64,000 bases of DNA, taken from an uncultured Bacteroidales bacterium (GTDB lineage: Bacteria > Bacteroidota > Bacteroidia > Bacteroidales > F082). The stretch covers positions 1 to 64,000 of the forward strand of contig CAMHFN010000006.1 of NCBI GenBank assembly GCA_946184615.1, read 5' to 3'. Shown in pieces: positions 50,324 to 59,593 of this stretch (its first letter is position 1; every line of letters starts with the position of its first letter). The notes under the pieces were generated by a model. The model was not told the origin of the DNA and made no database searches. It saw only the letters and a list, made by a program, of their open reading frames with translations. The position numbers were made by a program, and so were the translations under genes.

Positions 50324-51772
50324 TCATACTTTTGAAAATAAATCCACCATATTAGTATCTGTAAACGATCTCCAAATCTCAAGCGTGATCATCTGATAAT
50401 CAGGGAAAAGTTCTCCTATATAGTCTATCTCAAAAACCAATCTAAAATCATTTGGATCGTTGACTGCCTGACCTTCTTTACGTGTTCCTACCCTAGCTAC
50501 TTTTATATAATACAAATCACGAATTCCCTTCCCCTTAAAATATGGCATAAAATAATAAAGTTTATTAAGGGCAACGGTTGCTGGAAATCTTTTCCCTGTA
50601 TAGTATATTTTCGCCGATCTATCAAGATACTGATCAATATTATCAGATTTGACATAACTGATAAGGACATTTTTTGTTTTGTCGTATTTCAAGCTATCAC
50701 CTGCATGCGACTTATTATCTTCAATAAGAGATTCATTTACCACAATTTCCTTAGGATACTGTTCTAGAACAGAATATAGGTCAAGTTGATGTATTGTCGC
50801 TTGTTTTTGGATAGCTTTAAGCAAAGCATTGGTAATACGCCACATCATTACCGGAGGAACAGCATTCCCAATGGCTTTATACTGTCTGATTTGAGAGACT
50901 GTATCAAGCTTGAATGTGTCAGGAAACGATTGAATTCGCGCCGCTTCACGAGGAGAAAAACGACGATATCGCCCATCAACAATAAAAACAGGGTCTGTAC
51001 TATTAAGGCTAACCTTAGCAAGGTGAGCGCTGATTGTATTGCAGGGTTCATCCAGTTGCATGGCTCGTCCTTTATTCATTTTTTCTTTTACTGCCAGCAT
51101 TCCCGTCACTGCTTTTTCGCTAAAAAATAATTTTTCGTTTTTGTTTTCATCTTCAATAATAACATTCCCAAGCACTTTTCTATCACGGGCTTTTACTGCT
51201 ATTGGAAAAACGAAACGAGAATAATCCTCGGCATTACGAAACCCAATTATAAAAACACGTTCTCTTTTTTGAGGTACACCATGTTCCCATGAGTTCAAGA
51301 GTTTATAGGTAACAAAGTACCCGGCATCTTTAAACTCTTTTAGTATCATCGGAAAAGCCTTTCCTTTATTTGCTGAAAGCAATCCTTTAACATTTTCTGC
51401 AATAAAGAAACGTGGTCGTCTTTCTTTTAAGATTTTAACCATTTCAAAAAACAGCTTTCCCCTTTCGTCTTTATAGCCCAAACGTGGAGGATTTTGCGCA
51501 GAAATAGAAAACGATTGGCAGGGAAATCCGCCTATTAACATATCAAACTCTGGAATGCTTGCTATGTCTATTTCACGCACATCTTTAACTAAACATTTAT
51601 GGTCGAAATTGTCGTTGTATATTTGAGAACAATAGGGGTCATTATCTACCGCAAAAACGATTTCAAAAGGTGTTGTTTTATACTCTTTCCCAAGATAAGA
51701 AAAGCCTCCGAGAACACCTAAATCCATACCCCCACAACCACAAAACAGAGAAGCGACTTTTATTTTTTCCAT
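50324..51772 (-). CDS. DNA (cytosine-5-)-methyltransferase with about 170-aa C-terminal extension (Dcm-1)
   Basis: VASLFCGCGGMDLGVLGG; MLIGGFPCQSFSIS; FFIAENVKGLL; QKRERVFIIGFRN; YKAIGNAVPPVMM, followed by a non-MTase C-terminal region. Confidence 0.93.
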   Translation of the reverse strand: MEKIKVASLFCGCGGMDLGVLGGFSYLGKEYKTTPFEIVFAVDNDPYCSQIYNDNFDHKCLVKDVREIDIASIPEFDMLIGGFPCQSFSISAQNPPRLGYKDERGKLFFEMVKILKERRPRFFIAENVKGLLSANKGKAFPMILKEFKDAGYFVTYKLLNSWEHGVPQKRERVFIIGFRNAEDYSRFVFPIAVKARDRKVLGNVIIEDENKNEKLFFSEKAVTGMLAVKEKMNKGRAMQLDEPCNTISAHLAKVSLNSTDPVFIVDGRYRRFSPREAARIQSFPDTFKLDTVSQIRQYKAIGNAVPPVMMWRITNALLKAIQKQATIHQLDLYSVLEQYPKEIVVNESLIEDNKSHAGDSLKYDKTKNVLISYVKSDNIDQYLDRSAKIYYTGKRFPATVALNKLYYFMPYFKGKGIRDLYYIKVARVGTRKEGQAVNDPNDFRLVFEIDYIGELFPDYQMITLEIWRSFTDTNMVDLFSKV

Positions 51773-53238
51773 ACCAATAATTCCGTGGGTTTGAAATTTT
51801 TATCTGTAAAGGATATTTCCATGCCATCGCGCAGTTCAGCTTCAATTTGGTCGGTCTTGTAAAGTGAAACTGGGTTTCGTAGTATAAACAGTATCTTGTC
51901 TTTTTCGCTTAACATAAGCCGATAAACACAATAGTGCTCTTTGATAGTATCGGCGACGCGCCATTCATTCGCAGACATGTGAAAACCATACATTTGGATT
52001 TTTTTCTTGCTTATTGTCGTTTTTACTTCAATGTAGCGATGGTGTTCGGTGCCGTCAGCTTCAAAACTGTCAATATCGTATCCTGGATGATATGATGGAT
52101 TATCAACAATTTGGATAAGATGCATAAACTCTTCATAGCCATTAATCTTAAGGCGCATTTTTTCATGACTACAAACAATGGCTTCTCCAATATTGCCAAT
52201 ATCTTTTGTTGTAGTTGTTTCGGAAGATACAACATCTTTGATTCTACTATCGAAAACAACTTCTATTTCTTCATCGGGTTTAAGAATGGAACGTAGATCC
52301 GTTTTAAACAATTCGGGTTTCATTGACTGATTAATATAATCAAACCACAGTGGTTCAATTAACGAAAGTTCCGAAGTATCAATATCATGTTTACCATAAA
52401 AACGGTCATAACCCTTAAAGAATGATTTATCCTCATTAAAAACATTGATAGATTGTATTTGATTCTCTTTTAGAGAATAATAGCCATAATGAACACTAAG
52501 CAGATTGGCTATCTCCATGTAATCAAGAATGTCACCAGCATACCGAGTTACATCACCCTTTGTTCTTGGTTTGCCTGTTAAAGACTGCACCTTTTTGTCT
52601 CTAGGATTGTAGTACTTTATCTTTCGCCTTCGGTTATTTAATATGATTTGCGCCACTTTCTTGGGCGCAATCTTACCAGCGGTAACCCGAATGTCATTAA
52701 ATATGCAATAAGTAGCCTCTTCCGCTGATATAGACATTTCTTTAACATTATTGTTCTCTGAAAGAAGCTTGTTGCCTTCAAGAAGCACTTGTATAATAAG
52801 ACGAGCTGGCTTGAAGCGAATTTTATTCGCTATAATGTCTTTCGTGTCCTGTGGTTTCATATGTCCACCGGGAAACTGAAATGAAAGTAAAAAAAGGCGT
52901 AGGAATTGTGTTAAATCTTGTTTCTCATGAAGGAATTTTGCCATGTTGGAAGTCTCTGTAACATCCGATGTCTTATCCTCGTTATAGAATCCAAAAAGAG
53001 CCGGAATTTCAGTACGCCAATTATGAAGTGTCTTGTCAGCCATTCCAATATTCCCCGGAAACAAACGAATGGCATTAAAATACCTATCACTGTACTCTTG
53101 ACAGGAACAACGAGGAATTTTGCAACATTCATTTGCCATATAAAGCAATACGTTCTCAATATTGCTTTTAAATCGTGGCCTCACAAAATGTATTCTATAC
53201 CAATACTTGTCGGGAACTTCATAAAACCTTTTTTTCAT
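51760..53238 (-). CDS. Putative restriction endonuclease with C-terminal DUF3883/PD-(D/E)XK-like domain
   Basis: GNIGEAIVCSHEKMRLKINGYEEFMHLIQIVDNPSYHPGYDIDSFEADGTEHHRYIEVKTTISKK (GYDI...EVKTT); located between two C5-MTase genes, 4-bp overlap with 53235-54275. Confidence 0.65.
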   Translation of the reverse strand: MKKRFYEVPDKYWYRIHFVRPRFKSNIENVLLYMANECCKIPRCSCQEYSDRYFNAIRLFPGNIGMADKTLHNWRTEIPALFGFYNEDKTSDVTETSNMAKFLHEKQDLTQFLRLFLLSFQFPGGHMKPQDTKDIIANKIRFKPARLIIQVLLEGNKLLSENNNVKEMSISAEEATYCIFNDIRVTAGKIAPKKVAQIILNNRRRKIKYYNPRDKKVQSLTGKPRTKGDVTRYAGDILDYMEIANLLSVHYGYYSLKENQIQSINVFNEDKSFFKGYDRFYGKHDIDTSELSLIEPLWFDYINQSMKPELFKTDLRSILKPDEEIEVVFDSRIKDVVSSETTTTKDIGNIGEAIVCSHEKMRLKINGYEEFMHLIQIVDNPSYHPGYDIDSFEADGTEHHRYIEVKTTISKKKIQMYGFHMSANEWRVADTIKEHYCVYRLMLSEKDKILFILRNPVSLYKTDQIEAELRDGMEISFTDKNFKPTELLVWKK

Positions 53239-58304: not shown

Positions 58305-59593
58305 GGCTTTAACATCTTTTTTAGCACTATTCCCGCCTGCTCCGAAAACAACGGCGGAATGGCATTGCCAATTTGGGTATAACGAGGTACTTCCACCTTG
58401 CGCATCTTGCCGCCAGTGGTGTATTTCTTCTTGATTTCGTACCAATCAGGAAACGATTGGATACGGGCACACTCACGAACGGTCATGATACGGGGTTCAC
58501 AATAATGCAAGTAGTCATCCGGGCTTCCGGTAATGGTCGGAGAAACCACATTGGGGTCCAAAATGGTGATGCCGCGTTGTTTGATGCCCCATTGTGCACG
58601 GGTTTCACCGTCAATCCGTTTACCTTTTTGAGGATACTCCGCCAACAATTTTGTGTAACAGGCTATTTTTTCAGGCGTTTGCTTAGCAAAACTATGGCTG
58701 TCAGCTATTTTATGCGTTTTGGGATAATCACCACGCATTAGCTTTTCATAACTGGTCAATTTTGTTTTTCCATATTTACCAGAATAAAACCCTTTGCGGT
58801 CGGGAGAGGGAACTTCTCCGTTGGAACGAAGCAAGTCAGAAACGGCGTCCTGCAAGGTGTTGTTTGACTTTAAGCCTTTTTGTGCCAAGAATGCATCCCT
58901 GTTCTCCACCAAAAGCTTCTCAAAATTCTCAGGAGAACCTATTTCCTTTCGGACACCAACTAAGATGAAACGTTTGCGGCGTTGCGGGACACCATATTTG
59001 GAAAAGTCTATAACATGGGGCTTTACATTATATCCCAATTCTTCCAACCCACGTATTACTTTATGTGAATAGGGCTCGGCACCGTCTTTCTTGTTCTTAT
59101 CGAAAGCGTATGTGAAGCCTTTTACATTCTCAAAAAGAATCATCTTGGGCTGCACCAACTCGATAAACTTAATGTAAGAAAACACCAATTGGTTACGAAC
59201 ATCTTCCTCAACGCGTTTACCTGCCATCGAAAAACCTTGGCACGGAGGACCTCCGGCAACCAAATCCACCTTCCCCCTTAATGATTTCAGTTGTTCTGGG
59301 TATTTGTCCAACACCTCATTTATCTCATGTTCCGTTTGAGGCAACCAGTCGGGCCAATTAAAATGGTGCTTATTATCAATGAGGTTATATTTCAATGTCT
59401 CGAAAGCAAAAGCGTTCTTTTCAATGGCAAACAAACCCTCCCATCCGGCTTGATACAAGCCAAGAGATAAGCCGCCACAACCGGCAAACAAATCAATAAC
59501 CGTTGACCGTCCCGTGCTTCCGGTCAATACTAACCCTTCTTTTTTCGGAAAAGAAGATATTTTAGTGGTTTTCAAATGGTTAGTATTTCTCAT
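58301..59593 (-). CDS. DNA (cytosine-5-)-methyltransferase (Dcm-3)
   Basis: TVIDLFAGCGGLSLGLYQAGWEG; LVAGGPPCQGFSMAGKR; ILFENVKGF; QRRKRFILVGVRK; PRYTQIGNAIPPLF. Likely start MRNTNH at 59593. Confidence 0.95.
   Translation of the reverse strand: MRNTNHLKTTKISSFPKKEGLVLTGSTGRSTVIDLFAGCGGLSLGLYQAGWEGLFAIEKNAFAFETLKYNLIDNKHHFNWPDWLPQTEHEINEVLDKYPEQLKSLRGKVDLVAGGPPCQGFSMAGKRVEEDVRNQLVFSYIKFIELVQPKMILFENVKGFTYAFDKNKKDGAEPYSHKVIRGLEELGYNVKPHVIDFSKYGVPQRRKRFILVGVRKEIGSPENFEKLLVENRDAFLAQKGLKSNNTLQDAVSDLLRSNGEVPSPDRKGFYSGKYGKTKLTSYEKLMRGDYPKTHKIADSHSFAKQTPEKIACYTKLLAEYPQKGKRIDGETRAQWGIKQRGITILDPNVVSPTITGSPDDYLHYCEPRIMTVRECARIQSFPDWYEIKKKYTTGGKMRKVEVPRYTQIGNAIPPLFSEQAGIVLKKMLKP

Follow-up and report, generated by a model that had tools for sequence, protein, structure and literature searches.

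The stretch of DNA analyzed here (the window) comprises 64,000 nucleotides of contig CAMHFN010000006.1 (positions 1 to 64,000 of the forward strand) from the genome assembly GCA_946184615.1 of an uncultured Bacteroidales bacterium. In a preliminary description, seven open reading frames (ORFs) of this stretch were proposed to form a defence-type operon encoding three C5-cytosine methyltransferases (MTases; M1, M2 and M3), a dual GHKL ATPase (GHKL), a receiver protein with a putative HEPN effector domain (RR), an HNH nuclease (HNH) and a further nuclease (R). A sequence check revealed the seven minus-strand ORFs packed head to tail, and the computed coordinates (Table 1) and spacings were exactly those given before. 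M1 and GHKL overlap by 4 bp (ATGA), GHKL and RR are separated by 4 bp, RR and HNH by 2 bp and HNH and M2 by 3 bp, and overlaps of 4 bp and 13 bp are found between M2 and R and between R and M3, respectively. The seven genes lie on one strand and are probably co-transcribed. They are two adjacent modules: module A contains the core M1-GHKL-RR, usually together with a nuclease (here HNH), and module B consists of M2-R-M3.

Table 1. Genes of the two modules and the island that contains them (positions in the window)
Feature	Position	Strand	Evidence
M1, C5-cytosine methyltransferase of the core	58301..59593	-	PF00145, E 3.4e-57; beside GHKL in 30/30 loci
GHKL	55941..58304	-	HATPase_c_3, E 4e-22; HATPase_c, E 2.7e-19
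RR, receiver (phospho-acceptor D58) with HEPN-like helical domain (R246-N-x-L-A-H251)	55046..55936	-	REC fold in PDB; HEPN by motif and weak Pfam matches
HNH, HNH_2 nuclease, exchangeable companion of the core	54279..55043	-	PF13391, E 5.9e-13
M2, C5-methyltransferase of the BpuJI-type cassette	53235..54275	-	PF00145, E 4.8e-74
R, BpuJI-type restriction endonuclease	51760..53238	-	PF11564 (BpuJI_N), E 1.7e-119; PF13020 (NOV_C/DUF3883), E 1.5e-14
M3, C5-methyltransferase of the BpuJI-type cassette	50324..51772	-	PF00145, E 3.9e-75
Low-GC island in a defence hotspot	50278..60233	.	Collinearity with congener L075 on either side

The distribution of module A was studied by scanning genome contigs with the receiver, which gave 15 loci with readable flanks; independent genome searches added locus L041 and seven further loci. 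All 15 scan loci, found in Bacteroidales, one Verrucomicrobia and one Treponema genome, contained M1, GHKL and RR in that order, and the seven added loci belonged to other families of the window's phylum. In total, M1-GHKL-RR was found in 24 HEPN-type loci including the window, mostly from Bacteroidota, plus the Verrucomicrobia and Treponema genomes. The order was the same in 22 of them, and in the remaining two (L142, L143) M1 was convergent and located just downstream. Thus, the conservation of gene order across unrelated genomes, suggested earlier as a check of the defence-type operon, was confirmed for M1-GHKL-RR. The system is rare, the receiver being present in three out of 395 genomes, and no DNA of the window's receiver or GHKL-RR pair was found on plasmids (PLSDB).

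The genes that follow the core vary while M1-GHKL-RR persists. An HNH gene is located directly after RR in the window and in four other loci (L012, L016, L145, L146), and after Response_reg_2 in L043. McrBC/LlaJI-type pairs follow the core in six loci (L004, L006, L009, L015 and, by size and position only, L005 and L014), NgoFVII and other genes in L002, ResIII in L011, and housekeeping genes in L008, L141 and L147. Inactivation of the window's HNH nuclease, which has Y for H in the LHDK motif, was considered but set aside, since Y is likewise present in L043. In addition, SLATT-like and NB-ARC proteins, another probable defence pair, were noticed behind the M1-GHKL-RR core of L007 (11420-15351).

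Thirty of the examined loci had GHKL, a receiver and a readable flank, and M1 adjoined GHKL in all of them. Close relatives of M1 (at least 54% identity) were detected in seven out of 296 Bacteroidales genomes, one of which is that of the window, and all these relatives were located beside GHKL. The target-recognition region was 37-83% identical to that of the window in 25 of 29 M1 homologues and 19-31% identical in the remaining four, as compared with 6-26% for other C5-MTases. Since this region is kept while the downstream restriction genes are unrelated, the comparison suggests that M1 is the partner of GHKL-RR and not of the variable restriction enzyme. The M1 of L141 (19% in the target-recognition region) may have undergone an exchange of specificity. 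The trees of M1 and GHKL conflict in places, and the genes have therefore been exchanged.

GHKL is composed of a paraMORC/MutL-like N-terminal ATPase, a coiled coil, a DHp-like histidine (H583) and a C-terminal histidine-kinase ATPase. In both ATPases the catalytic residues vary little or not at all: E31, N35, D38, D57, G59, G61, K100 and G101, as well as N699, G752 and G754 of the C-terminal ATPase, were revealed in all 28 GHKL proteins. H583, also invariant, is located within KYHHD ahead of the C-terminal ATPase, where a DHp histidine would be expected. The histidine-kinase-like/receiver pair of the preliminary description is thus conserved, with its ATPase, kinase-His and phospho-Asp residues intact.

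RR has a length of 296 aa. Its receiver half matches PF00072 with an E value of 4e-5, under Pfam's cut-off, and the predicted model of this half matches solved REC structures with a TM-score of up to ~0.7 (by target length). The other half is predicted to be helical, with RN-x-LAH at a helix end. Residues D53, D58, D150, R246, N247 and H251 are invariant in 24 of 24 receivers, and the RX4-6H motif of HEPN domains is present in all of them as R-N-x-[LFY]-[AG]-H. HEPN families, led by HEPN_MAE_28990, RiboL-PSP and Swt1 (E 0.007-0.01), were the commonest weak Pfam matches among 17 RR members. When full-length and domain models of RR were compared with PDB, the receiver alone was recognised. Judging from the motif and the weak profile matches, the C-terminal half of RR is probably a HEPN domain, in agreement with the putative effector suspected earlier. 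No DNA-binding output domain was found.

Six loci are organized in a different way (L054, L055, L057, L139, L140 and L154, the last on a Stenotrophomonas plasmid). In these loci RR-HEPN is replaced by a lone receiver and a CHAT/caspase-like protein: in L054, L055, L057, L139 and L140, M1 and GHKL are followed by a receiver-like protein of ~230 aa and then by a GHG/SC protein of ~220-250 aa, and the Stenotrophomonas plasmid has the same four-gene order. The CHAT/caspase-like assignment is based on G65-H66-G67 and S119-C120, invariant in 28 homologues; a profile search of PDB with the CHAT-like protein gave no match. Profile comparison of the lone receivers with the 24-row receiver set gave 90%. 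The GHKL of L139 is divided between two ORFs. In the M1 tree the CHAT loci are interspersed with the HEPN loci. The replacement of HEPN by CHAT is an effector swap behind the same methylase and kinase.

Module B is an autonomous BpuJI-type restriction-modification (R-M) cassette. The M2-R-M3 order occurs in two Bacteroidales families (L038, L039) without any core gene on the stretch read, and a 9.6-kb Acinetobacter plasmid (L148) contains an MTase, a DUF3883 protein and an MTase together with a replication gene. It follows that, of the three MTases, M1 alone is part of the signalling core. The R protein had been described as a DUF3883-like nuclease; it does contain the NOV_C/DUF3883 domain, but its identity is that of a BpuJI-type restriction enzyme, with a match to R.BpuJI in PDB (E 1.5e-15). 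It has the BpuJI_N recognition domain in common with the BpuJI R-M system, whereas its nuclease half is NOV_C/DUF3883 and contains a PD-(D/E)XK-like set (E352, D388, E404-x-K406). The BpuJI site, CCCGT, is asymmetric. By analogy with BpuJI, the two MTases suit an enzyme whose site is asymmetric; R would then restrict, and M2 and M3 would protect the two strands of a presumably asymmetric site. M3 carries a 150-aa C-terminal extension (residues ~331-482), missing from stand-alone relatives in the alignment; the same stretch recurs in L002 (17907-20033), a DUF2357 protein with a PDDEXK_7 nuclease (E 2e-21).

Taking gene content and the conserved residues together, we interpret module A, with about even confidence, as a methylation-linked two-component abortive-infection system located beside a separate BpuJI-type R-M system. 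M1 would methylate a DNA sequence and thereby mark self. GHKL, a putative MutL/MORC-like ATPase clamp joined to a soluble histidine kinase, would sense invading DNA or damage, the trigger possibly being DNA that M1 has not marked or a disturbance of the linked R-M system. It would then autophosphorylate on H583, from where the phosphate would be transferred to D58 in RR. The phosphorylated receiver would release the attached HEPN RNase, so that translation or growth stops and no phage emerges from infected cells. HNH may act as a companion DNA nuclease, and elsewhere the effector slot is occupied by the lone receiver and a CHAT/caspase-like protease. H583, D58 and R246/H251 were singled out as targets for mutation.

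Several observations weigh against this interpretation. The receiver is slightly unusual, with E-N replacing the acidic pair (many relatives have D-D) and R111 close to where a Lys is usual. The model of the HEPN domain (pLDDT 89) has no significant match in PDB, and hhalign against known HEPN families gave a probability of 7%, aligned on RNxLAH only, which was still above five control profiles. Furthermore, M1 relatives from Proteobacteria, at no more than 43% identity, are mostly located beside unrelated genes.

A more specific version of the abortive-infection reading is possible, and we put it forward tentatively, as somewhat less likely than not: a methylation-licensed phosphorelay, in which self DNA bears the mark of the C5-methylase, the MORC-like kinase recognises unmarked DNA, and the phosphorylated receiver fires a killer domain that can be exchanged (the HEPN RNase or the CHAT protease), with no restriction enzyme needed. 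If true, restriction would here be achieved by shutting down the cell and not by cutting. Alternatively, GHKL-RR might watch over the adjacent R-M enzymes, as PrrC does, and fire HEPN or CHAT upon phage anti-restriction or loss of the methylase. R-M-linked HEPN proteins have been proposed to act so (PMC3710099), and the core usually adjoins restriction genes of changing type. Nevertheless, we regard such guarding or addiction as unlikely, since behind the core of L008, L141 and L147 no restriction enzyme could be recognised, and a partner nuclease thus seems unneeded unless it is located elsewhere in the genome.

Control of the R-M genes by the GHKL-receiver cascade, at the level of expression or activity, as Bellieny-Rabelo and colleagues proposed for a sister family (PMC8011034), would agree with the mostly regulatory role of receiver domains. 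We consider it improbable here: besides the missing DNA-binding output domain, the output is either a domain with invariant RNxxxH or a CHAT-like protein whose His and Cys are invariant, that is, domains of the effector type. A mere mosaic of R-M genes, each separately mobile and without joint function, is a very improbable reading of the seven genes. This possibility, named in the preliminary description as one that could refute it, applies to the BpuJI-type part, which is truly autonomous, and the conflicts between the M1 and GHKL trees speak of gene exchange; but the GHKL-receiver pair does co-occur with M1. The M1-GHKL-RR set is kept in Bacteroidota, Verrucomicrobia and Treponema, the Gammaproteobacterial plasmid with the CHAT variant has the same plan and tight spacing, and for the core the mosaic is largely refuted already. 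Finally, the earlier idea of one seven-gene system, with all three MTases, two nucleases and the signalling pair cooperating, is hardly credible in spite of the tight spacing of all seven genes, because the set was found in no other locus examined, while M2-R-M3 occurs alone and the core with HNH occurs without module B.

The preliminary description did not recognise the combination as a named system. PADLOC matched RR to no model and gave only weak matches for GHKL (the best being an REase_II model), while the MTases, R and HNH were scored as components of R-M type. However, R-M-linked genes for histidine-kinase-like and receiver-like proteins were described in 2021, with 91.6% linkage, a C5-MTase upstream, and HNH_2 and Vsr neighbours (Bellieny-Rabelo, 2021, PMC8011034). 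The authors offered control of R-M as a speculation, detected no additional domain in the receiver proteins and named no effector; the HEPN/CHAT swap suggests abortive infection for the class. If this is true, a bacterial relative of MORC ATPases would stand upstream of programmed cell shutdown, which bears on what MORC-type clamps sense. No paper describing a HEPN or CHAT output of these systems was found in a literature search, with most subscription papers outside its reach.

The closest known systems, HEF_HK/Response_reg_2 (PF19191, PF19192), share with module A a HATPase_c_3-DHp-HATPase_c protein beside a receiver protein, GHKL-receiver linkage and a C5-MTase neighbour, with HNH_2 and Vsr nearby; one of them occupies the same chromosomal slot in a congener. 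GHKL is homologous to HEF_HK proteins over the full length (hhalign 100%, 760 columns). Nevertheless, membership in these families was rejected: GHKL had no match to PF19191 at E<=1, though the invariant H583 (28/28) occupies the corresponding place, and RR had no match to PF19192 at E<=1, with a probability of 12% in profile comparison. No PF19192 match was found in the window's own genome. Response_reg_2 proteins are ~550 aa long with no sign of a HEPN-like tail, unlike RR with its 296 aa, and in trees GHKL and M1 each form a clade separate from the HEF_HK systems.

ParaMORC1, defined by an N-terminal GHKL, an S5 domain and a particular C-terminal extension, is encoded in R-M operons, where DNA methylases and HNH endonucleases accompany it (Iyer, 2008, PMC2292703); the apparent likeness concerns a GHKL ATPase with a C-terminal extension and the methylase and HNH operon, but that paper mentions no receiver partner, which the window's GHKL has. 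BbrUII/HgiDII-type enzymes and Shedu VcSduA (PMC12137116) also have an N-terminal GHKL ATPase in restriction or defence, and GHKL matched the BbrUII/HgiDII-type model NF050001 with E 3e-26 (residues 8-221), under the model's cut-off. In VcSduA the nuclease is part of the GHKL protein, whereas the window's GHKL has a histidine kinase at its C-terminus and leaves the output to a second protein. Detocs, a three-gene family with PNP as its best-described effector (PMC11249213), is alike in plan only, having a kinase and a receiver-coupled effector that is exchanged between loci; in module A a MORC-like ATPase would serve as the sensor and a C5-MTase as its partner, and the effectors are HEPN- or CHAT-like. 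HATPase and REC are among the domains of unvalidated predictions in the DefensePredictor paper (2026). A paraMORC3 gene beside an opposite-strand Dcm gene was noticed in the P2-like Escherichia phage PhiR44_1 (L053, 7962-11010), a probable cargo site.

To get insight into the chromosomal location of the two modules, we compared the window with related genomes. As described earlier, the region is AT-rich: the guanine-plus-cytosine (GC) content is 37.9% in 50278-60233 and 49.5% in the remainder of the window, and 10-kb stretches to the left of the island have a mean of 0.490 (standard deviation 0.009, minimum 0.471). The reported limits (50324-59593) hold for the genes, but the true island is slightly larger, ~50278-60233, as shown by collinearity with congener L075 (same genus), which extends over 40273-50277 and 60234-62255 with an unrelated insert between. 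The island is flanked by genes for a pfkB-type kinase (49316-50311) and a DUF5131 protein (60308-61171). In the same slot beside the pfkB-type kinase gene, McrBC genes are found in L075, and an AIPR protein is encoded together with a C5-MTase in L074. L073/L138 carry there a HEF_HK/Response_reg_2 system, accompanied by three C5-MTases and a McrB-like ATPase and bounded on the far side by the DUF5131 gene as in the window, and L076 has yet another insert. Since congeners fill the slot with differing defence inserts, it is a chromosomal defence hotspot; the host is a gut- or rumen-type bacterium and its defence slot is swappable. Scans for Rfam families and tRNA genes gave no matches.

A Vsr mismatch endonuclease gene is located at 46626-47186, at a distance of ~3 kb from the low-GC island, where the DNA is partly common to the congeners; Vsr genes are frequent neighbours of GHKL-receiver/methylase-type systems. 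At the right edge of the island there is a small divergent ORF (59795-60235) without a family match, which could encode a regulator or a small defence protein. At 62726-62800, near the start of a coding region, we noticed a 7-bp tandem repeat (AGAAGAC, ~10.7 copies, 97% matches), a possible slippage site or assembly feature.

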